Of a stretch of 64,000 nt of DNA, positions 33,127 through 53,563 are shown piece by piece. The stretch spans positions 1,661,131 to 1,725,130 of the forward strand of contig JAOSJT010000001.1 in assembly GCA_027493955.1 (NCBI GenBank). The letters run 5' to 3'. The notes under the pieces were generated by a model that had not been told where the DNA came from, did not search any database, and saw only the letters and a program-made list of their open reading frames with translations. The stretch is from Bacteroidia bacterium. Its GTDB lineage: Bacteria; Bacteroidota; Ignavibacteria; SZUA-365. Within the stretch, counting starts at the first letter, position 1, and each line of letters opens with the position of its first letter. A program made the position numbers and the translations under genes.

Positions 33127-36100
33127 TCAGAGGGTCACTGTGTTCCCGGGCTGCGGAGCGACGGCCCGCCGGAGATCTCCATTGCCCGCATCGTCCGCGA
33201 ATCCCATGCGGAGGCAGAATTTCCGCAGATAGTACGGAGCACGCAGCTGCAGAGCTCCCATGTCGGACGCCCGGCGACCGAGTTCGTCGATAATTGCCGC
33301 ACCGAGTCCCTTGCCGCGCACTGCGGGATCGATGATGAGCAGCTCGACGGACAGCGATCCATCCGCCTCAAATGCATAGCCCGCTCCTCCTTCGATGCGG
33401 TGCCATTCGTCAACGAGCACGAGATATTGCATACCCTCGCCGATCACCACGGGAAACTGCTCGCGCAAAAACAGATCATAGAGCATGCCGATTTCCGCAG
33501 CGGTGACTGCGTCGCGGAGGATAAAGGTTTCGCCGGTGCGTCCGGGTATGCGACGCTGCAGCACCTGCACGCCCTCGACGGTCATGAGTGCATACCGGGA
33601 GGCGTCGGCGGAGGGTGAGACCATGCGCAGCAGCGCATGACGCTCGTCTTCGGCCTGCAAAGAATCCTGCAGCGCAGTCATTGCCGGCAAACGGGTCGGC
33701 GGTACGGCCGGGTAGCGATGCATATCATCGAGCAGTGAGTCGAAGGCGCGCAGCGTCTCGTCCCGCGCGTCGGCGAACGCCGTCCGCCTGTACAGCGTGT
33801 AGCGTCCGATCTCGCCGAGACGGCCAATGTCGAACAGGCGCGCGAGATCCCGCGTATAGCGTTCGCGCAGTGCGAACGGCGGTGTGGCATGCGACGAGTT
33901 CCACTCGCAGAAGCATGCCACGGCGGAGTCCAGGGAAAGCGGGGCTATCCATCCCGCGCGCATTGCATCGAGCCATCGGGACGCCGCGGAGCGCAAATCT
34001 TCATCAACTTCATTTCCTTCCGCCAGCATGGCCTCGATCATCGACATTCCTTCCGCGTCTCCCAGCGCCTCGCGCGCAGCTTCGCAAATCCAGACGGCAT
34101 CGAGACTGCCACGCAACTCCGGTATATGCGCCGACGTCATTGCGTAAAAATGATGCCGCAGAGACTGCAAGAGCGACGCGGGACCGTCGCAGGGCTTCCA
34201 TCCGTCGATGCTGTGAATCATCGCTCCGCCGCGTACGCATTCGTCCGGCACGGACACATTGGCGGGATGCGCCGCACCGGGAATAATCGAACCGCTGCTC
34301 TGTCGCCACGCCGTGATGAACGCCGCCATGCCGCGGACGAACAGCGATCGCAGTTTTCTCGTCGCTTCCGCAGGATGGTCGCGGCGCGAAGCGAGCCTGA
34401 GAATGTCGTCCCATACCGTCGTTCCGCGGACGTACTGCATCGACACCGCTCCCGCATCCGGCATGAAGCTTCCGAAACGCGGCAACACACGCGCGCCCGA
34501 AGCCGCTCCCGCAAGCGCAATAAACGCGTGCATGCTCCCGAGAACGTCCGGATCGGAGAATTCCGGATGCAGCAATATCTGCATCTGGTAATGCCGCCCG
34601 TCGCGCGTACTGATGCTTGCCAAGAAACGCGGAGCACCCCCGAAACCCGGAAGCATGGAAATCCACACTCCGTCCGCCGCCACGCGCTCACAGGAAAACG
34701 AAGGGATTTCATACAACATCAAGAGGCTGAGCGGCAGGAATGGCGTGGACGTGAACAGCGCTTCGAGACGCAGCCTGGAATCGTCGGGTATGCTCTGATC
34801 GTAGCGCAGCGCCGAGCGCAGACAGTCGCCGCTGCTCCCGCCCTGCAGCCAGGCGGCGTAGCGGGATACGTACTGCGCCTTGAGCCGCTGAAACAGAGTA
34901 TCCGATCCGTATTGCCGTAACCCGCGTTCGAACTCATGCCGCATCCAGTGACAGAGTTCGGCACGGACTTCATAGACATACACCGGATCGGTTTCCGCAA
35001 GATGCGTGAGCAATTCGAGCACGGCTCTCACCACGACGGTCCCCTCCGGGCCGTCGAACACCTTCTCATCGCGATACCGCTGCAGCCTGGCTCGCAGCGC
35101 CGCGAGGCGTCCGTGACGGAGATCGCGTCCGGCGATGCCGCGAATGGATTCGCTGCTCAGAAACGGCAATCCCGATCGCACGAATTCGGCATACGCCGCG
35201 CTTTCCTCCGGCATGGGATCGTACAGCAGCAAAGCCGCGTAGGCGGAGCAGCGCACCCCGGCATCCGGATGCCACGCGAGCGACGCAAGTCTTGCCCGTA
35301 TCACCCCGCCGAGATGCCTCCCGCCGTGGTCGAGCTCCACAGCAACGTCGTCGATCAGCGTCATGGCTGTGGCCGCATCGCCCAGCAGCACCGCCGAGAG
35401 CAGCGCATGTATGCGGTGCAGGCGGATGGATACACCTGACGGCGCCGCACCGCCGGATGCAGCGAGCGTCCGCGACGCACCGTTGGCGGAGGCGCGGACG
35501 GACATCCCTGCGGGAAGCGAAGCGTCCCATCCCTCGCGGCACGGAAACATCGCGACGAGGGCGGGGTTTGCAATCCATCCGAGCGGCTGCCGGCACAGCA
35601 CACCGAGGTCCAGTACTCCTCCGGGGATGCAATATTCAAGATCGCCGACTATCCACGACTGTGCATCGCGTCCGCGGGCAACATTGAGCAACGTACCCTC
35701 CGCCCTGTTGCCGAGTCCGTCGCCGCCCGAAGTGATGTCGTGTTCCGTCACACCCAATTCCCGCAGCAGCCAGTGCGGGAGCCGCAGCGTCAGTCCATCG
35801 TGAACGAAGTCGAGGCTGCGCGACTTGTACAGCGAGGCAATGACGCCGGCGAAGGACCGAGCGACGGCGCCGCGGTTGAACGACCCCTTGGGAGTGAGTT
35901 CCCCCAGTTCCGCGTCGAAATCGCGGTCGAGCAATGCGTAGCGCACGATGCGCTCGAACGGAGCGAGCTGCGCGTTGACCGTGCGGATGATTTCGCGGAT
36001 ATACGCATCTCTTTCTTCCTCCGTATGCCCTGCGGAAAACAGGTGATGTGCGGTATCCGGAACGACAAGCAACACGTTGTACTCGCGGCCATCGCCGACG

Positions 36101-37668
36101 ACGAACACCCGGCGGAAACCCGGAATGCCCCGAAGCCGCGTTTCAATGCCGAGCGGAGAAACCGTCTGCCCCCTGCTGTTCTTGTAAATGTCCTTCAGTC
36201 GGTCCACGATTTCGTAGTTTCCCGACGCATGCCGTACGAATACATCGCCGGTGGCAAACCACGGATGATCTCCGGGATGAGCCATCGGCAGATCGCCCCC
36301 CTCCCCAAGAATGCGCGCAACGTAGGGACCGCGGATAAGCAGCTCCCCTTCATCCGATATGCGGGCGTCCACGCAGGGCAGCGGCACACCGACCGTTCCC
36401 GCTTCATACGCGCCCGGGGGACTCATGAGTATGCCGCCCGTGGCCTCGGTCATGCCGAAGCCGCTGCACAGCTCCACGCCGAGGTCCTGGAAAAAGCGGA
36501 ACACGTTCGCATCGAGGTGGCCGGCTGCCGACAAACCCCAGCGCAGAGATTGGCCGCATACCTCGCGAAAAGCATCCCGCGCTTCGCTGCCGCCGAGTCC
36601 GTTCATATTCGCGACCGCGGCATCGCGCAACTGCGACCAGCGCAGCGGAATTCCGATCAATCCCGTGGGCTGCACGGCGCGCAGACCCGAGAGCAGGGCC
36701 TCGCGGGAGCCGTCCTGCGCAAACACGTAGCGTCCGCGCCAGAACAGCATTCCCTGCAGTTCGAGGAAGCGGCCGAAGGTATGGAACAGCGGAAGATAGG
36801 CCAGCAGCGTTTCCCTTCGTCCGACCGAAGGCAGCGCAGCCGCGCGCGCGAAGCGCTTCGCGACCATGGCATGCTGCGAAAAACACACCGCCTTGGGCCT
36901 GCCCGTGGAACCCGACGTGAACATCACCGTCGCGGTGCTGAACGGATCGACGGGATGCTCCGGCAGCGGACGATGGCCGAACTCCGCGATGATATCGTCC
37001 AGCAGCAGAATGTCGCGATGTTTGTCCTCGATATCCTTTTGCGTGACGATGATGCTCGGAGGTCGCTTCATTGTGGCGGCGGCGGAGGCGAGCATGGTGA
37101 GGCGCTCCGGCGCATCGGTGACGGCGATGTTGATGCCGAGGCGTGCCATCATCCACGCCAGTTCCTGGACGTCGGTGTGCACACTCACCGGGGCCACGAG
37201 CATGCCGCGGCAGAGGCAGGCGAGATCGCACAGCGCCGTCTCGATACTGTTGGCGGCAAAAATGAGCACGCGCGGTGTGCTGTGCACAGCGTGAAGCGCC
37301 GAGGCGATGCGCCGTATCCGCTGGCGGGCTTCATCAAAGGTGAGCTTGCGGCCCTCAGCCAGCGACTCGAGATACACGGCGTCACCGCATTCTTCGGCCC
37401 TGTCCGCAAGCAAATCGCCCAGCGAATATCGCAGATGCGCAAGAAGAGCCACCGCATCGACCGCCCACTGATACCTGGTCGCAACATCGAGCGACTCGAG
37501 CACCTCCGGGCGCGCGCTCCAGCGGAGATAGTGCCTCCACACTGTGTCCGGGACAGCGGCTGCTCCCTGGGTTGCCAGAGTTTCATGCACCGCCGCTACC
37601 GCCCGGCGGTTGTGTTCGGGATCGTTGCTCTGCGATGCAAAAATCTCACTGTGTATCTTCACGGCCAT
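33127..37668 (-). CDS. giant fusion: AMP-forming acyl-CoA synthetase-like + helical region + kinase-like + GNAT
   Basis: A 1513-residue protein. Residues 1-95 are a conserved helical leader. Residues ~85-620 form an ANL adenylating enzyme of long-chain acyl-CoA synthetase type: FTSGSTGRPKAV at 250-261 (ATP loop), YLPLFHTFGRFLE, GFGMTEATGG at 403-412, ATGDVFVRHASGNYEIVDRLKD at ~472-493 (partly shown) and LTPKGSFNRG near 591 with the late Lys. Residues ~740-980 are alpha-helical, perhaps HEAT-like. Residues ~1000-1240 look like a degenerate aminoglycoside-kinase/ABC1-type fold (PGAAHPANVSV ~1130, IHSIDGW ~1151). Residues ~1365-1500 are a GNAT acetyltransferase with IDPAVRGKGLGAAII at ~1446. Monocistronic; the 5' end is duplicated at 40163-40449. 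Product unknown. Confidence 0.88.
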   Translation of the reverse strand: MAVKIHSEIFASQSNDPEHNRRAVAAVHETLATQGAAAVPDTVWRHYLRWSARPEVLESLDVATRYQWAVDAVALLAHLRYSLGDLLADRAEECGDAVYLESLAEGRKLTFDEARQRIRRIASALHAVHSTPRVLIFAANSIETALCDLACLCRGMLVAPVSVHTDVQELAWMMARLGINIAVTDAPERLTMLASAAATMKRPPSIIVTQKDIEDKHRDILLLDDIIAEFGHRPLPEHPVDPFSTATVMFTSGSTGRPKAVCFSQHAMVAKRFARAAALPSVGRRETLLAYLPLFHTFGRFLELQGMLFWRGRYVFAQDGSREALLSGLRAVQPTGLIGIPLRWSQLRDAAVANMNGLGGSEARDAFREVCGQSLRWGLSAAGHLDANVFRFFQDLGVELCSGFGMTEATGGILMSPPGAYEAGTVGVPLPCVDARISDEGELLIRGPYVARILGEGGDLPMAHPGDHPWFATGDVFVRHASGNYEIVDRLKDIYKNSRGQTVSPLGIETRLRGIPGFRRVFVVGDGREYNVLLVVPDTAHHLFSAGHTEEERDAYIREIIRTVNAQLAPFERIVRYALLDRDFDAELGELTPKGSFNRGAVARSFAGVIASLYKSRSLDFVHDGLTLRLPHWLLRELGVTEHDITSGGDGLGNRAEGTLLNVARGRDAQSWIVGDLEYCIPGGVLDLGVLCRQPLGWIANPALVAMFPCREGWDASLPAGMSVRASANGASRTLAASGGAAPSGVSIRLHRIHALLSAVLLGDAATAMTLIDDVAVELDHGGRHLGGVIRARLASLAWHPDAGVRCSAYAALLLYDPMPEESAAYAEFVRSGLPFLSSESIRGIAGRDLRHGRLAALRARLQRYRDEKVFDGPEGTVVVRAVLELLTHLAETDPVYVYEVRAELCHWMRHEFERGLRQYGSDTLFQRLKAQYVSRYAAWLQGGSSGDCLRSALRYDQSIPDDSRLRLEALFTSTPFLPLSLLMLYEIPSFSCERVAADGVWISMLPGFGGAPRFLASISTRDGRHYQMQILLHPEFSDPDVLGSMHAFIALAGAASGARVLPRFGSFMPDAGAVSMQYVRGTTVWDDILRLASRRDHPAEATRKLRSLFVRGMAAFITAWRQSSGSIIPGAAHPANVSVPDECVRGGAMIHSIDGWKPCDGPASLLQSLRHHFYAMTSAHIPELRGSLDAVWICEAAREALGDAEGMSMIEAMLAEGNEVDEDLRSAASRWLDAMRAGWIAPLSLDSAVACFCEWNSSHATPPFALRERYTRDLARLFDIGRLGEIGRYTLYRRTAFADARDETLRAFDSLLDDMHRYPAVPPTRLPAMTALQDSLQAEDERHALLRMVSPSADASRYALMTVEGVQVLQRRIPGRTGETFILRDAVTAAEIGMLYDLFLREQFPVVIGEGMQYLVLVDEWHRIEGGAGYAFEADGSLSVELLIIDPAVRGKGLGAAIIDELGRRASDMGALQLRAPYYLRKFCLRMGFADDAGNGDLRRAVAPQPGNTVTL

Positions 37669-38063
37669 GGTGGAGTGTGCTTTGGTATGGTCGATTGCTT
37701 AAAATCGTCTCACGAGGCAAAACCGCATCGCCCTGCGCTTCCTTCAGGTGCTGTAATCTACGAAATCCGGGAGCGGGTGCTAATGCTCCGGATACACCCT
37801 TCACGGGTGGGCACTGAAGCGAGGGATGTGCGCGAGGTCCGGTATGTAGGCAGCGTCCTCGCTTTTATTCATAGTATGCCCACCTCTTCGGGCTCGGGTA
37901 CAAGCCATGAACGTACATCCTGCCCCGGAAGAGCGAGAGTTCAGCCACGTCCCTCACCACCAGACGCCTGCGCTAAAGGTACCGTCTTTTTACCCTGCGG
38001 TAATCTTGCATTTCATTTTTTTTTCTTTTCGATGCGGTACATTTATGCAATCAGGAGGAAGCT
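37669..38063. other. intergenic region upstream of the giant fusion gene
   Basis: 395 bp; contains a T-rich stretch (38009-38033) that may be a promoter element or terminator tail. No gene seen before 38064. Confidence 0.4.
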
Positions 38064-38336
38064 ATGATCTCAACCTTGCCGGCGCACCCGTGCGAACCCG
38101 CGATGATCACGAGTTGGATTGATTATCAACGGATGTGTCCATCGGATCCCCGCGAATTGATCGCCCATGCTACAATTGACTCCGTGGTCGGGCAGTACGA
38201 CAACAGCGCGGACTTCATCGAACCCGGTACGTGGAGCGCCTCACCGCTCGCGATATCGAGCAAACCGGTTGTGTCAGTTCTCGAGTCGGACAACTATCTA
38301 CGGCCGAGCCGTCAACCAGAGCGAAGATCCGTATGA
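38064..38336 (+). CDS. small ORF with strong ribosome-binding site, unknown
   Basis: A 90-codon ORF (MISTLPAHPCEPAMITSWID...) preceded by AGGAGG six bases before the ATG, an unusually strong site for this window. The protein matches no family I know and its second half could be read just as well in another frame, so it may be a gene remnant. It belongs to the AT-richer cargo between the intact and truncated copies of the adenylate fusion gene. Confidence 0.3.
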   Translation: MISTLPAHPCEPAMITSWIDYQRMCPSDPRELIAHATIDSVVGQYDNSADFIEPGTWSASPLAISSKPVVSVLESDNYLRPSRQPERRSV

Positions 38337-38446
38337 CAACGAAACGTCAGCCATGGCAAGTTCTAAGGTCGTCTATCTATTACGCTAAACACCACGCCCG
38401 CACAACCCTGACTTATGCAAATATCCTGCCTAGAGGTTGAAGAATG

Positions 38447-39121
38447 ATGCGATCTTATCTGATCGAACTGGATCTAATTCAGCATCTGCGCCTGATCAGA
38501 TTGGCATTTTTGGGAGCTCTGCTCGTTTGTCCCGCATGCGGCGAAGGTCCTAACACCAGGCCGAATATTCCAACATTCTATCGTACACTCGATCATGTTC
38601 TCGCGGACTCTTCAACGCTCCGCCAACTCTACATGACTGAAATTGGAGACAGTCTGGATCCAAGAATCGGAGCTTTCAGTCAACTTGAGTATCTTGAAAT
38701 AAGAAATAGTGATTTACAATACCTGCCCGATGAATTTGCGAAGCTCAAGAGGCTATGGACACTGAAGTTGATTCATAACAATTTCAAGAGCATTCCTCCA
38801 CAGATTTTCGAACTATCCAGGTTGTCAGGATTGCTAATAGACGGAAACAAGATTGATTCCATTTCATTCGGACTTCAACGATTAACCAATCTCGATTTTC
38901 TCTCCCTGGATGATAACAGGTTACGGCATATCGCAATAGCAAACATCAATCCCCGTATGATGGTTTCAATGCATTTTTCAAGCAATCGACTTGATGACTT
39001 CCCCGCGGACAGTAGCGATTTTCCAAAGCTTCAATTTTTGGTGTTGGCTGGCAATCCTATTCCGGATTCAACTAGGAAAGCAATTCGACGCAGGCTCCCG
39101 AACGTTGAGGTATCATTTTAG
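38447..39121 (+). CDS. exported leucine-rich-repeat protein (copy 1)
   Basis: A 224-residue protein with a hydrophobic export signal (LIRLAFLGALLVCPACG, possibly a lipoprotein) and six to seven 23-residue leucine-rich repeats (LEYLEIRNSDLQYLPDEFAK, LWTLKLIHNNFKSIPPQIFE, LDFLSLDDNRLRHI, LQFLVLAGNPIPD). It ends IRRRLPNVEVSF like its neighbour at 39338, so they are paralogues. Base composition is clearly more AT-rich than the flanking genes. Likely a surface or periplasmic interaction protein; partner unknown. ATG 38447 or 38444 may start it. Confidence 0.75.
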   Translation: MRSYLIELDLIQHLRLIRLAFLGALLVCPACGEGPNTRPNIPTFYRTLDHVLADSSTLRQLYMTEIGDSLDPRIGAFSQLEYLEIRNSDLQYLPDEFAKLKRLWTLKLIHNNFKSIPPQIFELSRLSGLLIDGNKIDSISFGLQRLTNLDFLSLDDNRLRHIAIANINPRMMVSMHFSSNRLDDFPADSSDFPKLQFLVLAGNPIPDSTRKAIRRRLPNVEVSF

Positions 39122-39337: not shown

Positions 39338-39976
39338 ATGAAGTTGACAAATAGAATTCTTCTGATCATCGTGCTCCTCTGCGGGATAGCGTGTGAAGAG
39401 GATGTCATAGACACCACGAATCCATACAGACCTTACTACAGTCTTGAAGAAGCGCTGAGGGATTCGTTGGCCGCAACCGACCTCATTCTCGAAAACATTG
39501 GGGATACCCTATCTCCTGAGGTTGGCAGGCTGAGAAACCTGCGTGGATTATTTATCAGACGCTCAAATATTCGATATTTACCCGAGGAGATAAAGTATCT
39601 ACAATCTCTCACCATTCTCGTCCTCTCGAATAATCGGTTCGCGAGTGCTCCATATCAAATCAGGCAACTTGATAGGTTAGTGTCGTTGTGGATAGATCAC
39701 AATGAGTTCACGAAATTTCCGTCCGAGGTTGCGCAGTCAAGCAGGCTCTCTGAAATCAATGTAAAATCTAATCATATTACAATTTTTCCGGAAAACCATC
39801 TGAACTTGCGGCAAGTGGAATTTCTGAATCTCGATTCCAACAGGATTTCGGTGATCAACGTGGACTCCCTCGAAGCACCTCATCTCAGGATACTATCACT
39901 GCGAGGGAACCCCATCCCTGCGAACATGAAGGAGCAACTCCGGCAGCGCTTGCCCGGAGTAGAACTACGGTTCTGA
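39338..39976 (+). CDS. leucine-rich-repeat lipoprotein (copy 2)
   Basis: A 212-residue lipoprotein: MKLTNRILLIIVLLCGIAC ends in a good lipobox (GIAC). The mature part has leucine-rich repeats (LRGLFIRRSNIRYLPEEIKY, LTILVLSNNRFASAPYQIRQ, LVSLWIDHNEFTKFPSEVAQ, LRILSLRGNPIPANM) and the same C-terminal RQRLPGVELRF motif as copy 1. AT-rich relative to neighbours, suggesting transfer. Anchored in a membrane facing the periplasm or outside. Confidence 0.82.
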   Translation: MKLTNRILLIIVLLCGIACEEDVIDTTNPYRPYYSLEEALRDSLAATDLILENIGDTLSPEVGRLRNLRGLFIRRSNIRYLPEEIKYLQSLTILVLSNNRFASAPYQIRQLDRLVSLWIDHNEFTKFPSEVAQSSRLSEINVKSNHITIFPENHLNLRQVEFLNLDSNRISVINVDSLEAPHLRILSLRGNPIPANMKEQLRQRLPGVELRF

Positions 39977-40162
39977 GCTGAGATTTTCTATCTCCCCACA
40001 ACGTACGCACTATGAGTAATCCGGCGTCCGTTGTACTTCGCTTTCCTTTCCTTCATACTCAAATACGTAAGCCCGCTACCGCATCGACATACGGGAGGTA
40101 CGCGCTCATCGCTTCACCTGACGTGTACTTGCATTCTCGACAACGAAGCATGATGTCCGGCA

Positions 40163-40449
40163 TAGCCGCATTCTTAAACCCTGTCCGCAAGCAAATCGCC
40201 CAGCGAATATCGCAGATGCGCAAGAAGAGCCACCGCATCGGCCGCCCACTGATACCTGGTCGCTACATCGAGTGACCCGAGCACTTCCGGGTGCGTGCTC
40301 CAGCGGAGGTAGTGCCTCCACAGCTCGTCCGGTATCGCGATGGCTCCATCCGTTGCCAGAACTTCATGCGCCGCCGCTACCGCCCGGCGGTTGTGTTCGG
40401 GATCGTTGGCTACCTCCGTGAAAATTTCTGTATTTATCTTCAACGTCAT
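40163..40449 (-). pseudogene. truncated copy of the giant adenylate-fusion gene (first ~90 codons)
   Basis: ATG 40449 opens MTLKINTEIFTEVANDPEHN, then RAVAAAHEVLATDG... to LRYSLGDLLADRV, aligned residue by residue with the first 91 residues of the 33127-37668 protein. Nucleotide match is strongest toward the 3' end (a run of over 60 identical bases around 40180-40240). A GAA-to-TAA change gives a stop at 40174 and homology ends near 40163. Same orientation as the full gene, 2.5 kb away. Not functional as an enzyme. Confidence 0.88.
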
Positions 40450-41228: not shown

Positions 41229-41673
41229 CCTCGTCTACATCGGAGGTCAGACTCAGCGTTCTTGCATGGCAGAGAACTTCCACCCCTGCATCGCTGAAGT
41301 GTGCCCACCAGTCCGCCTCAGGCGGATACACCGGTCCATTTCGTAAGTGACATCATCGCACCAGTGCGTGCCAGCAAACCTTGTCATGCTGAGGGCTGCG
41401 ACGGCACGGATATTGCTTAAAAATCCGATATCAGCAGAGCAGCGTCTCGAAGCATGATTCTTTCCGTAACGTAATCAGAGCCCCACTTCCATGAGATGTC
41501 ATTAACAGGATTTTTTATCGGCGCGTACACTCAGGGTGACGATCCGTGCTGAACTCAGGATGAACACGGATACTTGCGCTCCCCAGTCTGGAGCGACGGT
41601 TACATCACCATGACATCTGCAATCGAATTTCTTCCTACATTAGCAGTACTTCAATATTGTGGAGAGCACTGTA
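41229..41673. other. intergenic region with degenerate repeat fragments
   Basis: 445 bp without a gene. Contains the palindrome TCCGCCTCAGGCGGA (~41315) and degenerate pieces of a GTCATGCTGAGG/CTCAGGATGA-type dispersed repeat (41384-41396, 41554-41563). Confidence 0.4.
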
Positions 41674-43119
41674 ATGAAGAAATGCGCATCTTTTCTGCTT
41701 TTTCTCATGACCACCACGTACTGCGCCAAAGCCCAGACAGCCTGGCCTCCGGCACCGTTTCTCCTCTCCACGCCTGCCGTACAAAATCCCACCCTCTTCC
41801 GCATGGATCACGTTGCCGGCTGCCCCGGCAACGGCCTGGAGCAGGACAAACTGCATCTGCAATGGCAGCGCTCGGTCTGGCTCCCGCCCTTCGAAGACAG
41901 AAACGACAGCACGGATACGGTGCGCTATGAAATCAATTTCATCGTCGAAAGTCACAGCGGCCCGGGTACGATCACCGTTCCCTTCCCCTCGGCCAACGGG
42001 GCTGTGGATTGGGACGACGTTCTGAGCGGCGATGAGCTGTACGAGCGATTGTTTCGTCCCCCTGTCCCGCATCCGGTGGAGCCGGATACCATAGTGATTC
42101 GCGTGCCGTGGTTTGTCCGGGCATGGAACAGCGTGGGTTCTACATACTCCGACACTGCCGGCATCACAATACGAAACAACCCCTTGCCAACACCCGCGCT
42201 GGTGATGTCGTACAACCGGCCGCCTTCCCCCTACCCACCAACAATGGTACAACCCCGGAACGGCGAAGTAGTCACCGGCATCAGTGCCGCCTCACCGCCT
42301 CTGCCCTTCCTCTGGTCTCCGTCTTATGATCGCAACATTGCGAAAGGTGAGACGAACGCTGTATTCAGGCCTTATAATCCCGTCACCCGGCAATGGGAGA
42401 TCGATTATGATCAAACGGTCGATACGCTCAGCTATCAGTGGGTCGGCACCGTCGTCCACACCGCACCGCCGGGAAAAGGAGCACCGATCGGGACGGTGCT
42501 GGCACGACATACCCGAACGAGCACAGGTTTTCAGATGATGACGGCGGATTTTGATTTGCTCTTCGGGGGACTCACACCACCACCTACGGCGATGACCGCC
42601 GATACGGTGGTTCTTGATTATAACATCTTCGTCAAGGACTTCAATTACACTGATTTCACTTCACTTCTGGCACCGCGGGCTGAAGTCACGTTCCGCTACA
42701 GAGAAGACGGAACTCTGTACCCCGACACCTCGAAGTGGGTCCGCTCCGGCTGCAGGCCGCATGAACAGGTCAGCTCGGTGTACAGAATCACCCTGGTCAG
42801 GGACGGCATTGTCGGTGTGGAAGCAAACACCCCGTTGCCATCAGCGCCAACGTTGCGTGCGCTGTATCCGAATCCCGCGATCACCGGCTTCACCGTGGAG
42901 TATGCCTTGCCGGGAAGCTCAGCCGCAGCGCTTGAAGTGCTGGATATACTCGGACGCAGTGTCAAAACGCTGTCGCAAGCCGCACCCGGCGCGGGGACGC
43001 ATCGGGCCGTGTGGGATGGCAACGACATGAGCGGACGACGCGCCGGGCCGGGCACCTACATACTGCGCCTCACATATGGCACCGAAGTGCTGACGCGCGC
43101 CGTTATCGTGCTGCGCTAG
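41674..43119 (+). CDS. secreted T9SS cargo protein with type A sorting domain
   Basis: A 481-residue protein: signal peptide MKKCASFLLFLMTTTYCAKAQ, a large beta-rich body without a family I recognise (fibronectin-like strands, many Pro/Thr), and a C-terminal ~85 residues of T9SS/FlgD-like sorting domain (LRALYPNPAITGFTVEYALP, LEVLDILGRSVKTL, AGPGTYILRLTYG). It should cross the outer membrane by type IX secretion and be anchored or released after removal of the tail. ATG 41674 has GGAG nine bases upstream; the in-frame GTG 41659 is unnecessary. Confidence 0.85.
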   Translation: MKKCASFLLFLMTTTYCAKAQTAWPPAPFLLSTPAVQNPTLFRMDHVAGCPGNGLEQDKLHLQWQRSVWLPPFEDRNDSTDTVRYEINFIVESHSGPGTITVPFPSANGAVDWDDVLSGDELYERLFRPPVPHPVEPDTIVIRVPWFVRAWNSVGSTYSDTAGITIRNNPLPTPALVMSYNRPPSPYPPTMVQPRNGEVVTGISAASPPLPFLWSPSYDRNIAKGETNAVFRPYNPVTRQWEIDYDQTVDTLSYQWVGTVVHTAPPGKGAPIGTVLARHTRTSTGFQMMTADFDLLFGGLTPPPTAMTADTVVLDYNIFVKDFNYTDFTSLLAPRAEVTFRYREDGTLYPDTSKWVRSGCRPHEQVSSVYRITLVRDGIVGVEANTPLPSAPTLRALYPNPAITGFTVEYALPGSSAAALEVLDILGRSVKTLSQAAPGAGTHRAVWDGNDMSGRRAGPGTYILRLTYGTEVLTRAVIVLR

Positions 43120-44374: not shown

Positions 44375-44726
44375 CAGGGACCGTCTGCTCCCCACTCCGC
44401 CCCTTCCGCAGTGCGGGCACGCCAACGCGCAGTACGGTCCATCTCGTCTGCTTCACTGATCCGACTTCTGGTATGCAGCCACGGTCGCCGGTACGGGGTC
44501 CGTGCTGGAGATGAATGTCCATCAGCATCTCCCTTGATACCCTCCTGACAGTATCCTTTTTCGGAATCCTTTTCAGAAATCCCGGTGATCTTGCGTGTAC
44601 CATCATTTTTCGACACATTTGTCGTAGAATATCTTTTACCATCGCGGCCTGTACTATCGGACAGGCGCCGCAACGGTGCGCCAATGTGATGTCGTATACG
44701 GAAGCACTCATCCAGAAGGTATGAAC
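44375..44726. other. intergenic region before the propeller array
   Basis: 352 bp with no gene recognised; presumably holds the promoter of the first YCF48-repeat gene. Confidence 0.4.
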
Positions 44727-46832
44727 ATGAGCACAAACCGGTTATTTTTCGGCCTAACCGTTACTTTTCTTTTTATCGCTTCTTCCAGTGCCAACGCCCA
44801 GCACGGCTGGACCTGGCAAAATCCACGCCCTCAGGGGAATGCCCTGTACGACGTCACGCATCTCACGGGCAGCGAATGGCTGGCGTGCGGCGAGCATGGA
44901 AGCCTCATCCGCAGCAGCGACAACGGCGCAACATGGACGCCTCAATCCTTCGGCAGGCGAACCCGCATCCTCCGCATGCACTTTCCATACCCCGACCAGG
45001 GCTACCTGACCGTCGAAGGCAGTGTGTTCCACAGCAGCGATGGCGGCCGGACGTGGCTTGAGCAGATCAACACCGAATACACACTATGGGACATAGATTT
45101 CGCCGACGCGCAGCACGGAATAGCCGTCGGCAGCTTCGGCATCATACTGCACACGAGCGATGCCGGAGTGACGTGGAATTATCTTGACGCGGAAATACAA
45201 GACGATCTGCACGCCGTCGTGTACACCGACGCGGCCAACGCTGTGATCACCGGCGCCAATGGAATCCTCCTGCGGACGAGTACGGGCGGTCTCTCCTGGC
45301 AAAAAAGCACCATCGGCACCAATCGCAGAATCATGGATATCACCGCCATCCCCGGCGGTGGCGGCTCGCTGATCGCGGTGGGCGACAACGGGACGCTGCT
45401 GCGGTCCACCGACGGCGGAGAGAGCTGGACGAACGCCATACACAGCTCCACCAGCAACCTGACACGCGTACATTTCACCGATGGAAACAACGGCATCATA
45501 ACCGGCGGTGGCGGAACACTTCTCCGTTCCGCGGACGGCGGAAAAAACTGGAGCAACGTCCTCCCGGGCGGAGGCGCCGATCTCCGCGGCATCGCCACGC
45601 ATGGTATGACAGCGCTCATCGTCGCGGCGAACGGCACCGTGCTTCGCAGCAGCAATGGCGGCATGAACTGGGGCGGCGAGGGTCCGGTCACCATAAACCA
45701 TCTGAAATGTCTGTCCTTTTCCGACGCTTCGACGGGCATCACGGCGGGGTTGGGCGTATCGCCTCTCTGGACGACAAACGGAGGGCAGGTCTGGAACAGG
45801 CAAGCCATTTCGAGCGGAAGCGATATTCTCGACATCTGCCTGATCGGCGGCACTGTCCATGCAGTCAGCAAAGGCGGCTACATCCTCCGTTCGCGGCTTG
45901 ACGGAAGCGCGAACACCCGGCACACCGTCAACACTGCGATACAATTGCGGGGTGTGTCCTTTATCGACGCGAACAACGGTATCGTCGTCGGCACGAACGG
46001 CACCATCCTCCACACCGACGACGGCGGGGATACCTGGGTCAAGCGCACAAACGAACAGTATCTGCATCTCAATGATGTGCTGCTCATCGACACAGAGACC
46101 GCTTTGGCTGTCGGGGAGCGCGGCACCTGCATTCGCACATCCGACGGCGGCATCACCTGGTCGTACATGCTTGTCGGTGTGCAGGAAGAGTTGAAGTCCA
46201 TCAGCTCCCTGACCGATGGCTATATCTCGATCGCCGGGACCCAGGGTCTCATCCTGCGCAGTGGTACACTGGGGATGAACTGGGATATTCAAAGGATTGA
46301 GACGCGACCCATGCTTAATGGCATCAGCTTCGGAAACGCCTCTGTCTGTGTAGCGGTCGGTGAGTTGGGCGCCCTGTTCGTCACCACCGACGGCGGGAGC
46401 ACCTGGACGTCGCAGCCCGAAGTGACGCGTTACGGTCTGAACGCGGTTCAGATGCACGATGCGCGCAGCGGCACCATCGTCGGTAACAGCGGCATCATAC
46501 TTCGCACCACCTCCGGTGGAGTCTCCTGGCTCGCGGACACGCGGAGAGCGCCCGCACAGGCCATGCTCGGCCGGCATTACCCGAATCCCGTGAGCGACCA
46601 CGCCGTCATTCCGTTCACCCTGCACGAGGCGGGTCATACGACAGTCAGCGTACACGACATGCTGGGGCGGCGCGTCGCGCTCCTTCTCGATACATTTCTC
46701 GATTCGGGAGCACACAGCGCCCATTTCGATGCCGCGGCGCTGCCGGCCGGTATGTACATCTGTGTGTTACGCACGGCGCACGGAGCGGTGTCTTCCATGC
46801 TTCCGGTATTTGGCCCCGGCGCTGTCCGGTGA
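44727..46832 (+). CDS. T9SS-secreted YCF48/BNR-repeat beta-propeller protein (paralogue 1)
   Basis: A 701-residue protein: signal peptide ending ASSSANAQ, the family opening HGWTWQNPRPQGN, then about a dozen ~43-residue blades of the form GxxGxxLRSTDGGESW...V.F.D.., and a C-terminal T9SS type A tail (YPNPVSDHAVIPFTL, VSVHDMLGRRVALL). YCF48 repeats relate to photosystem assembly factor HCF136 and to sialidase/BNR propellers; in T9SS bacteria such proteins are surface-exposed with unknown ligands. I choose ATG 44727, seven bases after AAGG; ATG 44721 is also possible. First of four tandem paralogues. Confidence 0.9.
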   Translation: MSTNRLFFGLTVTFLFIASSSANAQHGWTWQNPRPQGNALYDVTHLTGSEWLACGEHGSLIRSSDNGATWTPQSFGRRTRILRMHFPYPDQGYLTVEGSVFHSSDGGRTWLEQINTEYTLWDIDFADAQHGIAVGSFGIILHTSDAGVTWNYLDAEIQDDLHAVVYTDAANAVITGANGILLRTSTGGLSWQKSTIGTNRRIMDITAIPGGGGSLIAVGDNGTLLRSTDGGESWTNAIHSSTSNLTRVHFTDGNNGIITGGGGTLLRSADGGKNWSNVLPGGGADLRGIATHGMTALIVAANGTVLRSSNGGMNWGGEGPVTINHLKCLSFSDASTGITAGLGVSPLWTTNGGQVWNRQAISSGSDILDICLIGGTVHAVSKGGYILRSRLDGSANTRHTVNTAIQLRGVSFIDANNGIVVGTNGTILHTDDGGDTWVKRTNEQYLHLNDVLLIDTETALAVGERGTCIRTSDGGITWSYMLVGVQEELKSISSLTDGYISIAGTQGLILRSGTLGMNWDIQRIETRPMLNGISFGNASVCVAVGELGALFVTTDGGSTWTSQPEVTRYGLNAVQMHDARSGTIVGNSGIILRTTSGGVSWLADTRRAPAQAMLGRHYPNPVSDHAVIPFTLHEAGHTTVSVHDMLGRRVALLLDTFLDSGAHSAHFDAAALPAGMYICVLRTAHGAVSSMLPVFGPGAVR

Positions 46833-47001
46833 AGCCAATCGTCGCCTCACGACAGGTTCTTGTCCGCAACGAGGCGGCGAATAAGGAGCGGAATTTCTTC
46901 ATTGACTTCTACGGGACATTCCCGTATTTTCCTGACTGAAGTTGCCTTTTTGCATCGCGCATGATCGCCTCCCGGACAGTCAGCGTATCGACTTGTCAGG
47001 C

Positions 47002-49155
47002 ATGCGCGCCACAACCCGAGTGAGCGGAGTTTTCGTGCAATATCGCGTGGCGTGTGTTCTCCTGCTTTCTGTGTTTGTCATCGTCCTGCATGGCCGCTGC
47101 CATGCGCAAATCGGCTGGTACTGGCAGAATCCCTTCCCGCAGGGCAATCACCTTCAATCCGTTGCCTTTACCGATGCGCGTACCGGAACCGCCGTGGGCT
47201 GGTGGGGTACCATACTGCGCACCACCGACGGAGGACAGACCTGGGTCCCGCAGGCAGGCGATATCTATTCGCTCTATGGCGTGTGCTTTACCGACGCCAC
47301 TACGGGTAGCGCCGTCGGTCAGCGCGGGACGATACTGCGCACCACGGACGGCGGCAATCAGTGGACGCTGCAACAAAGCGGCACCAGGGAATTACTGACG
47401 CGGGTGACCTTCCTCGATGCCAACATCGGAATTGCCGTGGGACGCGCGGGCGTCATTCTGCGCACAAGCAATGGCGGGAGTACCTGGACGCCACAGATCA
47501 GCGGCTACATTGTCGACCTCTGGGGTGTGGCGCTTGCTGACGCTGATAATGCGCTCGCGGTGGGGCTGGAGGGGATGATACTCCGGACCAGCGACGGCGG
47601 CGAGAGCTGGTGGCGCATCATGAGCGGTGTGTCTACCTCCCTCTATGGCATTGATCAAATAGATGCGAACACCTTCGTGGTCGTGGGAAACGACGGCGTC
47701 ATACTCCGCAGCAGCGACGCGGGTCAGAACTGGATACGGCAGGGCGTCGGTGTCACGAACGAGCACCTCATCGCTGTCTCCTTCGCCGATGCGAACCACG
47801 GACTTGTCGTCGGACAGAACGGCACCATACTGCGCACCACCGATGCCGGTGCGCATTGGGTACAGCAAACGGTATGGCACCGGAAGCCGTTGTACGGCGT
47901 CACGCTCATCGATGCGCTCACCGGTGTGGCCGTCGGAGAGTCCGGCATCATCATGTACACCACCGACGGCGGAGTGTCGTGGACGGATCGCGCACCGGGC
48001 GAACGAGCGTCTTTCCACGGCATCGCCTTCTCGGATGCGGAACACGGCATAGCCGTCGGCGAGGCCGGAACGATTCTGCGCACCGCCGATGAAGGCGACA
48101 CCTGGCGGCGCACCGTCGGTGTTTCGGAACAAACACTCTACGATATAACCTTCGTCGATGGCACTCAGGGAAGCACAGCGGTGGCGGTGGGCGCCGGCGG
48201 AAGTATATTGCGCAGCACCGACGGCGGCGAGCGTTGGGCGGCCATTGAAAGCGGCACTGCGAATGATCTCACCTCGGTCGCTTTCGTTCCGAACGGAGCG
48301 GGTATCGCTGTCGGGATGCGCGGCAGCATTCTGGCAACGAGCGATCAGGGCGAGACCTGGTTCGCGCGAAACAGCGGTACGACAACGGATCTCTACGGCG
48401 TGGATTTCGCGGATGAGGACCACTGCGTTGCGGTGGGCGTCAACGGAAGCATATTGCGCAGCACGGATGGCGGGCAAGCCTGGTCGCTGCAGAATTCCGG
48501 CACCATTGCCACACTATACGGCGTGGATTTCGTCGATGCGCAGCACGGCACCGCCGTCGCCTGGGATGGCGGGATACACCGAAGCAACGACGGCGGAGTC
48601 ACCTGGCGCAGGCAATTCAGCGGACTGACATCCATTCTCGAAGATGTGGCTTTTATCGATGCGAACAACGGCTACGTGGTCGGCAGCGGAGGGACCATAC
48701 TCCGCACGACGGACGGCGGCGCCTCGTGGTCGAAGCAGGACGTCGGGACCGCCAACTGGCTCAACGCAATCAGCGTCACAAGTTCACAGAAGGCCACCGT
48801 TGCCGGCTGGGGCGGGACCATACTCCACACCCGTAACGGAGGACTGACCAGCATCGCCGCGTCGGCAATCGCCACGAACGCCGCGCTCCTCGGCAATAAT
48901 TACCCCAATCCCGTCAGCGCCTCCACCACCATCCCATTCTCTCTCACGTCACCGGAGCACGTGCGGCTCAGCATCTATGACATGCTCGGACGCGAAGTAG
49001 CGGTGTTGGTGAACGGACGGCTGGATGCGGGATTGCACAGTGCGTGTTTTAATGCTGCGGGTCTGCGGGCGGGGATGTATTTCTCTGTTCTGAGAAGCGG
49101 ATCGGTGGTAGAGACCAGGAAGCTGCTGTTGACGAATACGAGCGCGGACTACTGA
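47002..49155 (+). CDS. T9SS-secreted YCF48/BNR-repeat beta-propeller protein (paralogue 2)
   Basis: A 717-residue paralogue: signal peptide (VACVLLLSVFVIVLHGRCHAQ), IGWYWQNPFPQGN, about fourteen regular blades (for example GWWGTILRTTDGGQTW, GQNGTILRTTDAGAHW, GSGGTILRTTDGGASW) and the sorting tail YPNPVSASTTIPFSL...LSIYDMLGREVAVL. It is the most regular member; fourteen blades could make two seven-bladed propellers. ATG 47002 gives the best signal peptide; earlier in-frame TTG 46942 is unlikely. The tail shares about 43 identical bases with paralogue 4. Confidence 0.9.
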   Translation: MRATTRVSGVFVQYRVACVLLLSVFVIVLHGRCHAQIGWYWQNPFPQGNHLQSVAFTDARTGTAVGWWGTILRTTDGGQTWVPQAGDIYSLYGVCFTDATTGSAVGQRGTILRTTDGGNQWTLQQSGTRELLTRVTFLDANIGIAVGRAGVILRTSNGGSTWTPQISGYIVDLWGVALADADNALAVGLEGMILRTSDGGESWWRIMSGVSTSLYGIDQIDANTFVVVGNDGVILRSSDAGQNWIRQGVGVTNEHLIAVSFADANHGLVVGQNGTILRTTDAGAHWVQQTVWHRKPLYGVTLIDALTGVAVGESGIIMYTTDGGVSWTDRAPGERASFHGIAFSDAEHGIAVGEAGTILRTADEGDTWRRTVGVSEQTLYDITFVDGTQGSTAVAVGAGGSILRSTDGGERWAAIESGTANDLTSVAFVPNGAGIAVGMRGSILATSDQGETWFARNSGTTTDLYGVDFADEDHCVAVGVNGSILRSTDGGQAWSLQNSGTIATLYGVDFVDAQHGTAVAWDGGIHRSNDGGVTWRRQFSGLTSILEDVAFIDANNGYVVGSGGTILRTTDGGASWSKQDVGTANWLNAISVTSSQKATVAGWGGTILHTRNGGLTSIAASAIATNAALLGNNYPNPVSASTTIPFSLTSPEHVRLSIYDMLGREVAVLVNGRLDAGLHSACFNAAGLRAGMYFSVLRSGSVVETRKLLLTNTSADY

Positions 49156-49246
49156 AGTTTTATTTTCCTGACGGGGAATGAATCACCCCGCTGAATTGTC
49201 TATCCTTGGTAACTGTGAACCTTGGTATTTGATGAGAGTTTGAACC

Positions 49247-51361
49247 ATGATTAAACGAGCCGGACTGTCTTGCCTTTATGTCGCTATCCTTCTCCTCAAC
49301 AGCAGCCTCCTCGAAGCGCAGTCCGGCTGGTTCTGGCAGAATCCGTTGCCGCAGGGGAATACTCTTTACGGAGTACATTTTGCTGATGAGCACATTGGAT
49401 ACGCTGTGGGGAACTACGGGAGTTTCTTACGTTCAACTGATGGTGGGGAGACATGGACACAGTTGAATACACCCACCAAACGGGATTTGCGCGATGTATT
49501 CTTTACCGATTCCATGAAGGGGACGATAGTCGGCGAGTTTGGAAGGATATTCAAAACAACTGATGGCGGTAACAATTGGGAAGATCGATCAATATCTACA
49601 ACAAACGTTTTGTTGAACGTTGATTTTACAGATGAAAAGCACGGATGGATACTTGTAAGTAACAGCACCTTGCTCCGCACAGAGGATGGTGGGAATAACT
49701 GGGCTGGTTCCAGCTTGAGCAATTTTGGAAGCGTACTTGGAATGCACTTCACAGATCATGAGGTTGGGACTCTCGTTGGAGCAGGTGGATTGATAATCCA
49801 TACGACCGACGGAGGAACCACCTGGCAAAATCAGGAAAGCGGGACGAAGCAGAGGCTCTATGATGTTTGCTTCCGAAATAGTGATTATGGGATCGCTGTA
49901 GGAGACGGTGGGACTATACTACGAACGACAAACGGCGGCGCAGTATGGACTAAACAAAGCACCACAACATATAATCGTCTTGAGTCTTTACAGTACTCTG
50001 ATAGCCTCAATATCACAACTGTTGGTGACCACGGGTGCGTACTTCATTCCACAAATGGAGGAATCGAGTGGATGGAGGTATCAAGTGGCTTAGTCCAATG
50101 GCTATACGATCTTTGTTATGCTGACAATCAAATCGGCATTGCAGTCGGCGCGAATGGCTGTATAGTAAAAACTACGAACGGAGGGACAGATTGGGAAAAG
50201 CGATGGTCAGGACAATACGGGTTGATGACTGAAGTGGTCTTTACCGATCACAACCATGGGTACGTGACCTGCGGTGGGGGATGGACAATTCGAACCGAAG
50301 ATGGCGGAGCAACGTGGATCGGGTATTTTCTTGGATCAATCTGGGATCAACAGCATGGGCTCTCTTTCTATGATCACAATCACGGCATTTCTGTAGGTCC
50401 TACAGGAAGAATTTTTACGACTACAAATGGAGGGGACTCTTGGAACAGACAATTAAGCTGGGTAACGGAACATCTCAACGGGATTTCTTACTCTGACTCA
50501 ATGCACGCAACAGCAGTTGGTGAGCTGGGGAGAATTATTACAACATCAGATCGAGGGATCACGTGGTTACCGCAAAACAGCGGGTGTTCAGATTACCTTT
50601 CGGAGGTGTCGTTCTGTGATAGCGATCACGGCCATATCGTAGGATTTGAAGGTACCATCCTCTACACGTCAAACCGAGGATTGGATTGGATACGTCAAAA
50701 TAGTGGCGTAACGAACGACCTCTGGGATATTACATGCAGAGACTCACTCTGTTGTACAGCTGTTGGGGCAAAAGGAATCATACTTAAGACCACCAACAGT
50801 GGGATGAGTTGGGAGGAGCAAGATAATCCAACCCGGTTCAATCTTTATGGCGTTGATTACGCAGATTCGTTATTTGGAGTCGCTGTAGGGGAATTTGGTG
50901 TCATCTTATGGACATTGGATGGAGGGAAGTGTTGGTTTATACAAGAAAGTCCCACTGATAAAATCCTTGTGGATGTAGATATGATTGACAGACAAACTGG
51001 AACCATAATCGGAGAGGGCGGCACCATCCTCCGCACCACCACCGGCGGCGTGACCTGGGTCGAAGATGAAAAGCCCTCCCCCTCCCTCCTCCACCTCGGC
51101 CAGAACTATCCCAATCCGGTCACCGCATCAACCACCATACCCTTCTCGCTCACCAATTCGGAGCATGTAAAACTGCGCGTTTACGACATGCTGGGACGTG
51201 AGGTGGCTGTGTTGATCGATGAGCGGCGCGAAGCTGGTGCGCACACTGTGCGTTTCGATGGCGCGGGATTGCGGGCGGGTGTGTATTTTTCTGTTCTGAA
51301 AATTGGATCGGTGATCGAGACACGGAAACTGATTCTGATGACCGCAAGCACGGCCTATTGA
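49247..51361 (+). CDS. T9SS-secreted YCF48/BNR-repeat beta-propeller protein (paralogue 3, mosaic composition)
   Basis: A 704-residue paralogue with signal peptide to EAQ, SGWFWQNPLPQGN and about thirteen blades, then the tail LGQNYPNPVTASTTIPFSL. Its central ~1.6 kb is distinctly AT-rich with divergent blades, while the last ~350 bp switch abruptly near 51015 to GC-rich sequence almost the same as paralogue 4 (GGCACCATCCTCCGCACCAC). This indicates an AT-rich, perhaps acquired gene whose ends were exchanged with resident paralogues. The ATG is preceded by GAGAG about nine bases upstream. Confidence 0.9.
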   Translation: MIKRAGLSCLYVAILLLNSSLLEAQSGWFWQNPLPQGNTLYGVHFADEHIGYAVGNYGSFLRSTDGGETWTQLNTPTKRDLRDVFFTDSMKGTIVGEFGRIFKTTDGGNNWEDRSISTTNVLLNVDFTDEKHGWILVSNSTLLRTEDGGNNWAGSSLSNFGSVLGMHFTDHEVGTLVGAGGLIIHTTDGGTTWQNQESGTKQRLYDVCFRNSDYGIAVGDGGTILRTTNGGAVWTKQSTTTYNRLESLQYSDSLNITTVGDHGCVLHSTNGGIEWMEVSSGLVQWLYDLCYADNQIGIAVGANGCIVKTTNGGTDWEKRWSGQYGLMTEVVFTDHNHGYVTCGGGWTIRTEDGGATWIGYFLGSIWDQQHGLSFYDHNHGISVGPTGRIFTTTNGGDSWNRQLSWVTEHLNGISYSDSMHATAVGELGRIITTSDRGITWLPQNSGCSDYLSEVSFCDSDHGHIVGFEGTILYTSNRGLDWIRQNSGVTNDLWDITCRDSLCCTAVGAKGIILKTTNSGMSWEEQDNPTRFNLYGVDYADSLFGVAVGEFGVILWTLDGGKCWFIQESPTDKILVDVDMIDRQTGTIIGEGGTILRTTTGGVTWVEDEKPSPSLLHLGQNYPNPVTASTTIPFSLTNSEHVKLRVYDMLGREVAVLIDERREAGAHTVRFDGAGLRAGVYFSVLKIGSVIETRKLILMTASTAY

Positions 51362-51448
51362 ATACATTTTCGGGCGGAGAAAGTGATCCTCTCACCCGAC
51401 AGCGGCAATGACCATACACATTTTCCAAACCAGTTGTGAGGATGAACC

Positions 51449-53563
51449 ATGACCCGGTATGCTGCACCTTCTTGCCTGTTTCTCTTCGCGTTTCTTCTGA
51501 TCAGCAGACCTTGTCAGGCCCAGTCCGGCTGGTTCTGGCAAAATCCGTTGCCGACGGGAAATGACCTTCTCGATGTGGCATTTTTCAGCGCGGAGACCGG
51601 CATCGCGGTGGGCGGACGAGGCACAATACTTCGTACCACCGATGCCGGCGCACAGTGGCTGTCGCAGTGGGTCGGCAACTCGCGGGATTTACGGGGTGTG
51701 GCATGCGCGACTCCGCTGATCGCCGTCGCTGTTGGCATAGATGGCATCATTCTCAGAACCACGGACGCCGGCGCGAGGTGGTCGGAGCAAAACACCAATA
51801 CCGCCTACGCGCTCAACGCCGTCGCTTTCGCCGATGCGGCCACCGGTGTGGCCGTCGGCACATCCGGAACGATACTCCGCACGACGGACGGAGGACTCAC
51901 CTGGACTCCGCGACAGGGAGGAGCAAACTCCTTCCTGCACGACGTCGTCTTCATTGACGGGGCGACGGGTTTCGCCGTGGGGCGTGATGGTATCGTTCTT
52001 CACACCACCGACGGCGGCGACACCTGGACTGCGCAGACACTGGCAAGCGGAAAGCACTTCCGCTCGGTGTCCTTTGCCGGCAGCACGCATGGGTGTATCG
52101 TCGGCGAGATGGGCGTCCTGTACCGCACGAGCGATGGTGGACAACAATGGAGCGCGGGCAGCACCGGCAGCACACAGTGGCTTCATGAAATTCTCCTGAC
52201 CAGCGCGGATGCGGGTATCACCGTGGGAATGAACGGGACCCTTATCGCAACCACGGACGGCGGAGCGAACTGGGCCCGCTCCGATGTGATTCAGTGGTCA
52301 TCGGGCACACATTCGATGGGTTTGCAATACAACGGCATCTGTCATGCCGGCAGCAACGATCTCTGCATCGTGGGCAATGCGGGCACCATTTTACGGAGCA
52401 GCAATGGCGGCGTCAACTGGATCGAGCAATCCATGGGCGTGCACAACCATTTCACCGGAATCGATTTCCACGGCAGAGACACCGGCCTTGGTCGTGGGGA
52501 CATCATTCTCCGCACCACCGACGCGGGCGACCATTGGGTACGGCAGCAAACGGATACCAGCTTTCATGCGAACGCGGTGACACTGCTGAACAGCAGCATC
52601 GCGGTCGTCGTGGGAGACGACGGCCTGATCATCCGCAGTACGGACGCGGGCGTGACGTGGACGGAGCATCGCCGCGAAGCGGATATCGATCTCCACGGCG
52701 TCAGCTTCTGCGATGATGTGCACGGCATGGCAGTCGGGCGCAGCTCTACCGTTCTTCGCAGCAGCGACGGCGGTGTGCACTGGACAAGACTCTCCATGCC
52801 CGGACCAGCGGAGGATTATTTCAGCGTATCCTGCGCAAGTCCGCTCACCGCGTTCATCCACGGAGGTAGCACGGTGTTGCGCACGACGGATGGAGGCGCA
52901 AACTGGACGGACATTTCGCCTACGAAGCTGGCCCCGCTGTACTGTATGACCTTCGTCGACAGTCTCCATGGCTTCATCGCAGGGTACACGGTTCTTTACC
53001 GAAGCACCGACGGAGGAAACAGTTGGGAATCCGTCTCGCCGGTGGCGTTCATCGCTCCCGACGCCCTGTCGTTCACGGACAACCTGAACGGGCTGGCGGT
53101 CGGCTCCGTTGGTGAAATATCGCGCACCACCGACGGCGGCCGGACCTGGAAAAAGGAGGACAGCCGCACCACCTCCGGACTTACCTGTGTGTGTATGATA
53201 GATACGGAGACGGCGAGCACAGCCGGATGGTTCGGCACCATCCTCCGCACCACCACCGGCGGCGTGACCTGGGTCGAGGATGCAAAGCCTTCCCCAACCC
53301 TCCTCCACCTCGGCCAGAATTATCCTAATCCCGTCACGACCGTGACCACCATCCCTTTCTCTCTCACATCGCCGGAGCACGTGCGGCTCAGCATCTATGA
53401 CATGCTCGGACGCGAGGTGGCTGTGTTGATCGATGAGCGGCGGGAGGCGGGGTCGCACAGTGTGCGTTTCGATGCTGCGGGACTGCGGGCGGGTGTGTAT
53501 TTCTCTGTGTTGAGAAACAACAGAGGTACGGTGACGACAAAGATGGCCGTGGTGCCTCGCTGA
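51449..53563 (+). CDS. T9SS-secreted YCF48/BNR-repeat beta-propeller protein (paralogue 4)
   Basis: A 704-residue paralogue: signal peptide ending ISRPCQAQ, SGWFWQNPLPTGN, about thirteen blades (GGRGTILRTTDAGAQW, GTSGTILRTTDGGLTW, GRDGIVLHTTDGGDTW), WVEDAKPSPTLLHLGQNYPN linker and the sorting tail ending VTTKMAVVPR. Composition is uniformly GC-rich, unlike paralogue 3. The last gene of the array; 168 bp separate it from the HicA gene. Confidence 0.9.
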   Translation: MTRYAAPSCLFLFAFLLISRPCQAQSGWFWQNPLPTGNDLLDVAFFSAETGIAVGGRGTILRTTDAGAQWLSQWVGNSRDLRGVACATPLIAVAVGIDGIILRTTDAGARWSEQNTNTAYALNAVAFADAATGVAVGTSGTILRTTDGGLTWTPRQGGANSFLHDVVFIDGATGFAVGRDGIVLHTTDGGDTWTAQTLASGKHFRSVSFAGSTHGCIVGEMGVLYRTSDGGQQWSAGSTGSTQWLHEILLTSADAGITVGMNGTLIATTDGGANWARSDVIQWSSGTHSMGLQYNGICHAGSNDLCIVGNAGTILRSSNGGVNWIEQSMGVHNHFTGIDFHGRDTGLGRGDIILRTTDAGDHWVRQQTDTSFHANAVTLLNSSIAVVVGDDGLIIRSTDAGVTWTEHRREADIDLHGVSFCDDVHGMAVGRSSTVLRSSDGGVHWTRLSMPGPAEDYFSVSCASPLTAFIHGGSTVLRTTDGGANWTDISPTKLAPLYCMTFVDSLHGFIAGYTVLYRSTDGGNSWESVSPVAFIAPDALSFTDNLNGLAVGSVGEISRTTDGGRTWKKEDSRTTSGLTCVCMIDTETASTAGWFGTILRTTTGGVTWVEDAKPSPTLLHLGQNYPNPVTTVTTIPFSLTSPEHVRLSIYDMLGREVAVLIDERREAGSHSVRFDAAGLRAGVYFSVLRNNRGTVTTKMAVVPR

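Follow-up and report, generated by a model that had tools for sequence, protein, structure and literature searches.

A single-chain bacterial protein with synthetase-like, pseudokinase and GNAT parts: a possible regulator of central metabolism

What might a bacterium do with one chain of 1513 residues that opens as an acyl-adenylating (ANL) synthetase, closes as a GNAT acetyltransferase and, between residues 617 and 1410, returns nothing in a Pfam scan? Such a protein is encoded in the window, the 64,000-nucleotide stretch of DNA analysed here. The initial annotation had read the product as an ANL enzyme, a helical region, a degenerate kinase-like domain and a GNAT in a single chain, and Pfam, AlphaFold models and fold searches all agree with that layout. 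It had also held that no described enzyme has this order. The searched papers and curated libraries indeed contain no description of the four-part architecture, and two reviews of bacterial acetyltransferase types (PMC8556138, PMC6456759) include no ANL-pseudokinase-GNAT protein. All four parts are members of known superfamilies; their combination, with the pseudokinase it contains, has no counterpart in the libraries and papers searched.

The gene and its parts

The position first given for the open reading frame, 33127-37668, is exact, and the strand that had been left out is the minus strand, with the ATG at 37668. The features of the gene and of a nearby partial copy are listed below.

33127..37668, minus strand: whole open reading frame, 1513 aa, with full-length homologs
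37429..37668, minus strand: N-terminal extension, residues 1-80, the least conserved part of the protein
36313..37404, minus strand: large N-terminal ANL domain, residues 89-452 (PF00501, AMP-binding, E 2.2e-55)
36889..36921, minus strand: A3 or P-loop motif FTSGSTGRPKA, residues 250-260 (T251, S252, G253, G256 and K259 invariant, n=88)
36433..36465, minus strand: A5 motif SGFGMTEATGG, residues 402-412 (nearly invariant, n=88)
35821..36177, minus strand: small C-terminal ANL domain, residues 498-616 (PF23562, AMP-binding_C_3, E 3.2e-12)
35869..35904, minus strand: A10 region GELTPKGSFNRG, residues 589-600
35479..35781, minus strand: small beta-rich domain, about residues 630-730 (AF2 model; no sequence match found)
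34804..35436, minus strand: alpha-helical region, about residues 745-955 (AF2 model)
33991..34794, minus strand: protein-kinase-like domain, a pseudokinase, about residues 959-1226 (AF2 model; VIA-align to Bud32)
34198..34281, minus strand: degenerate catalytic and DFG loop PGAAHPANVSVPDECVRGGAMIHSIDGW, residues 1130-1157 (residue counts in 86 members)
33604..33978, minus strand: helical linker 3′ of the kinase-like domain, about residues 1231-1355 (AF2 models)
33154..33594, minus strand: GNAT acetyltransferase domain, about residues 1359-1505 (Pfam; GCN5 profile match; VIA)
33301..33318, minus strand: acetyl-CoA-binding motif R/Q-x-x-G-x-G/A/S, residues 1451-1456, here RGKGLG (alignment of 88)
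40158..40408, minus strand: decayed partial duplicate of the gene's 5′ end (about codons 1-92), 251 bp, 88% DNA identity, closed by a stop

The gene is real, because full-length homologs occur both in the same bacterial family (41-43% identity) and in other families of the class (26-35%), and because dN/dS (Nei-Gojobori, four close homolog pairs) is 0.02-0.33 across all domains. Every domain is under purifying selection, with values of 0.03-0.14 for the ANL part, 0.04-0.12 for the kinase-like part and 0.02-0.17 for the GNAT; since the ratio stays below 0.35 in all parts, the pseudokinase too is retained by selection. A 775-aa plus-strand frame that overlaps the gene (35740-38067) was taken as an antisense shadow. 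The source genome, a single contig of 5.24 Mb, carries one full-length copy of the protein, and its remaining ANL proteins are ordinary ones. The decayed copy of the 5′ end sits 2.5 kb upstream of the gene.

Active-site motifs and the degenerate kinase-like domain

The N-terminal part clearly belongs to the ANL superfamily. PF00501 scores 188 bits against a cutoff of 29.9, an alignment of 53 diverse homologs has 75 invariant columns in the ANL region, and the residues of motifs A3, A5, A7 and A8 are essentially invariant among 88 members. The closest ANL relatives, among the matches listed, are long-chain acyl-CoA synthetases, and the FadD-type enzymes (PF00501 plus PF23562) share the whole domain with all four motifs. 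Two things set the 1513-aa protein apart from them, namely the 890 extra residues fused at its C-terminal side and an atypical A10 segment. The usual position of the A10 lysine, 596, is Ser or Thr in 88/88 members, and an invariant lysine, K594, lies two residues upstream. Where ordinary long-chain synthetases of the same and related genomes have LTPTLKVKRK or LTPSMKIRRK, this family has LTPKGS/TxxRK, and the lysine three residues after the proline that marks a canonical long-chain synthetase (LTPTxKxKR) is missing. With that lysine absent, acyl activation by the ANL domain, and with it any formation of acyl-CoA or the internal use of the activated group that the initial annotation proposed, is only putative. 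As the motif reads, the invariant lysine immediately after the proline (K594) may stand in for it.

At the other end of the chain, PF13673 (Acetyltransf_10, residues 1411-1493, E 2e-5) scores above its cutoff and identifies a GNAT domain; no NCBIfam model reaches its own cutoff among the best 25 listed for the protein. A profile of the domain searched against the PDB found Tetrahymena GCN5 best (2e-10; next family 7e-6), and structural comparison by VIA matched NatD, GCN5, PCAF and YhbS at Z of about 16. The fold matches also include the solved complex of a Pat GNAT with the C-terminal domain of an acetyl-CoA synthetase (4u5y, Z 13.5). In keeping with GCN5-related N-acetyltransferases, the domain has the R/Q-x-x-G-x-G/A motif, with R or Q at 1451 in 65/88 members, G1454 in 85/88 and G or A at 1456 in 58/88 (Ser in 27). 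It differs from them in being embedded in a 1500-residue chain and in the catalytic Glu of GCN5, whose aligned position, 1440, is variable across the 88 members. An acidic residue at 1442 had been considered for this Glu and was dropped, as the alignment places it at 1440. Since the Glu is unconserved, catalysis by the GNAT is only putative, as is the protein lysine acetyltransferase activity suggested by its resemblance to GCN5 and NatD.

The initial annotation had named a fold search of the middle region as the test of its reading. AlphaFold models and fold searches rule out that the middle is an extension of the ANL fold, and confirm the C-terminus as a GNAT. A model of residues 620-1505 built with 30 homologs (pLDDT 83.5) begins with a beta-rich piece, continues through a helical region into a kinase-like domain and ends with further helices and the GNAT, while the kinase-like part modelled alone (residues 955-1360, 86 homologs) reaches pLDDT 90.3 and pTM 0.88. 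In a Foldseek search of the PDB, the hits of this part were kinases together with one phosphotransferase acting on an antibiotic (best E 1.1e-5). In VIA-align, Bud32 ranks first (Z 14.4, rmsd 3.8, 218 residues aligned) and all 50 among the matches listed are kinase-fold proteins. Searched by sequence in the PDB, neither the helical nor the kinase part gave a credible match. PI3-kinases came top when the 886-residue model was searched with Foldseek, through the helical and kinase parts together (E 3.8e-5), and are absent from the best fold matches of the kinase domain alone; with TM-scores of only about 0.2, this likeness is a lead and nothing firmer.

Like Bud32, RIO and APH-type kinases, the domain has the kinase-like fold over about 218 residues and keeps the catalytic-loop Asn (N1137, 84/86). 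It departs from them in every other catalytic element considered. The catalytic Asp position, 1132, holds Asp in 10/86 members, mostly of group B (see below), and Ala in the window protein; the DFG Asp position, 1153, is Ser in 75 and Thr in 11; and the beta3 strand has no Lys among the 86 members. Because of these three losses the domain is, judged by its residues, a conserved pseudokinase. The initial annotation had allowed for a pseudokinase or a phosphotransferase, and only the former survives, the metal-binding Asp of DFG being Ser or Thr in 86/86. Active kinase or phosphotransferase function is ruled out by the residues at 1132, 1153 and beta3.

Distribution and gene neighbourhood

When 84,980 species genomes were scanned with the conserved core of the ANL part, 452 related stretches emerged, and the analysis went on with the best 80. 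At 59 of these 80 loci there is an intact frame of about 1490-1680 aa (two are longer, stop to stop); at a further 17 the frame runs off the contig, and at the other 4 it is interrupted by stops or frameshifts. The recurrence of the same intact frame rules out a local gene fusion or an assembly artefact. The best 80 of 452 come from Bacteroidota (including Ignavibacteria and Kapaibacteria), Acidobacteriota, Gemmatimonadota, Calditrichota, Krumholzibacteriota, Zixibacteria, Latescibacterota, Myxococcota, other Deltaproteobacteria, Fibrobacterota, Riflebacteria and Lysobacterales. The same four-part protein thus occurs in ten or more bacterial phyla, and its phylogenetic distribution, which the initial annotation had wanted checked, is that of a family and not of a one-off; as all source genomes are metagenome bins, individual cases could reflect mis-binning. 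Two otherwise full-length homologs, at L088 (10856-10858) and L125 (2577-2579), contain single in-frame stops (TAA, TAG) that reflect sequencing error or recent decay.

Within the class, 54/391 sampled genomes carry the ANL-GNAT protein. No free-standing pseudokinase was found, a phylum-wide profile sample having matched only frames of 1515-1638 aa. In the tree, two Ignavibacteria-type families, f11 and f22, together called group B, are split from all others by a long branch. The window's family falls among rows from Calditrichota, Acidobacteriota and Gemmatimonadota, a placement that is unsure in a tree made by a quick method.

The gene in the window is solitary, flanked by a GH130 gene and by genes for leucine-rich-repeat proteins. 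The latter are two small adjacent genes (38444-39121 and 39338-39976, plus strand) just upstream of the gene and on the opposite strand to it. Beyond them, a tandem array at 44676-53563 (plus strand) encodes four secreted paralogs, each about 700 aa long and 33-41% identical to one another, which carry YCF48/BNR repeats and C-termini of the Por-secretion type; a 486-aa protein at 41659-43119 has only a segment of about 100 aa in common with them.

Elsewhere, the recurrent neighbours are genes of the TCA cycle. Citrate synthase, found in the class genomes by PF00285, lies near the gene in 26/38 group-B genomes. At most Bacteroidales loci, the gene has citrate synthase and aconitase upstream of it, on the opposite strand, and isocitrate dehydrogenase just downstream, these three being assigned by eye from sequence. 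The two arrangements involve different citrate synthase types and sit on opposite sides of the tree; the linkage arose separately in two lineages. The window's own family has no adjacent citrate synthase, and neither do f21 and f26. No partner other than the TCA genes recurs across the sampled loci. A gene resembling lipoate-protein ligase (by eye) was considered as a recurrent partner and set aside, as it occurs in three related loci only, just upstream of the homolog and on the same strand (L076 7202-8224, L078 6996-7997, L108 6107-7111). Family f11 has, ahead of citrate synthase and the homolog, two genes resembling squalene synthase and one resembling a desaturase, again by eye (L035, L036, L037, L038, L040, L066, L067, L069, L070 and L071).

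Candidate functions of the fused protein

Reviews sort bacterial GNAT acetyltransferases into five types (PMC6456759). Type I, Pat, joins an acyl-CoA-synthetase-like domain to a C-terminal GNAT, the synthetase part serving as a regulatory acyl-CoA sensor (PMC8556138; PMC6456759). The reading tentatively preferred here, at somewhat less than an even chance, is that the present protein is a single-chain, Pat-like protein acyltransferase built from different parts. The AMP-forming synthetase-like domain would bind ATP together with a carboxylic acid or its acyl-CoA, and would either produce acyl-CoA or sense it. The GCN5-like GNAT would then acylate an amine, with lysines in metabolic enzymes as the most probable acceptors. 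Together, the helical region and the pseudokinase could be the scaffold by which the target is positioned or recognised, perhaps with a nucleotide bound but not turned over, and the targets might lie near the citrate-synthase end of central metabolism.

Several indirect lines of evidence argue for such a Pat-like acyltransferase. It has the layout of type I Pat (PatZ, YfiQ), its ANL motifs A3, A5, A7 and A8 are essentially invariant, and its GNAT profile best matches GCN5, with the folds of GCN5, PCAF and NatD, all protein acetyltransferases. Citrate synthase is linked in two lineages, and classical Pat does not co-occur. In the class sample, 22 genomes have NDP-forming synthetase frames of Pat length, with a GNAT domain in 7/8 of those scanned. 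Such frames occur in 0/54 genomes with the ANL-GNAT protein and in 22/337 without it (Fisher p=0.034), a weak mutual exclusion that relies on listed frame lengths and is uncorrected for phylogeny. The protein is also clearly distinct from Pat itself, whose synthetase domain is NDP-forming (ATP-grasp) and about 700 aa long; here it is an AMP-forming ANL domain, the helical and pseudokinase section is extra, and Pfam finds no match to PF13607, PF13549 or PF13380. Against the Pat-like reading stand the solitary gene of the window, the missing citrate synthase linkage in its own family, the weakness of the Pat exclusivity, the generic nature of GNAT folds and the unconserved GCN5 Glu. The kinship of the ANL domain to long-chain acyl-CoA synthetases would suit a role in lipid metabolism equally well.

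That kinship leads to the main rival, a biosynthetic N-acyltransferase, which is rather unlikely. In such an enzyme, the ANL domain would activate a fatty acid to acyl-AMP or acyl-CoA, the GNAT would attach it to a small amine (an amino acid, amino lipid or peptide), and the middle would be a tether and substrate platform. The conserved ATP-binding motifs of the ANL domain and its nearness to long-chain fatty-acid CoA ligases are as such an enzyme would have them, and the squalene- or hopanoid-type genes upstream of citrate synthase in f11, recognised by eye, also point towards lipids. Across phyla, however, no gene of a lipid or peptide pathway recurs beside the gene, where TCA-cycle genes do; the chain has no carrier-protein domain, and the usual A10 lysine is missing.

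Another way to account for the fusion is self-control, in which the GNAT would acylate a lysine of its own ANL domain, such as the invariant K594, and so switch it off while the pseudokinase gates the process. The A10 lysine of AMP-forming synthetases is a classic site of modification by GNATs (PMC4053389; PMC8556138), the A10 segment does contain an invariant lysine, and the 4u5y complex among the fold matches pairs just such partners. Pat and AcuA circuits likewise bring a GNAT and an ANL enzyme together, but as separate proteins and with the A10 lysine as target, whereas here there is one chain and the targeted position is Ser or Thr in 88/88. A middle of 700 residues far exceeds what self-control would need, and this explanation is improbable. 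About as improbable is a third, in which the ANL domain is a pseudoenzyme sensing acyl-CoA or AMP, the kinase-like part a nucleotide sensor and the GNAT the only enzyme: it fits the absent A10 lysine, the degenerate kinase residues and the catalytically dead sensor domains of type I/II Pat (PMC8556138), but the extreme conservation of A3, A5, A7, A8, K594 and R599 resembles a working active site, perhaps with K594 in the A10 role.

The Pat-like reading can be carried further, to a bolder and unlikely proposal. Across ten or more phyla, the protein could represent an unrecognised type of bacterial protein acyltransferase, in which the ANL domain makes or senses the donor, the fused GNAT transfers it and the pseudokinase docks the target; in lineages that lack classical Pat, it would control how carbon enters the TCA cycle. 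If this were true, many environmental phyla would control their metabolism through a protein acyltransferase class outside the current five-type scheme, and the family would show a pseudokinase incorporated, in bacteria, into an acyltransferase of metabolism. Whatever it does, a conserved chain of four parts and some 1,550 residues, present in ten or more phyla and unnamed in the curated libraries searched, is a clear target for biochemistry, and it may turn out to be a regulator of a new kind, one that acts on central metabolism by acylating proteins.
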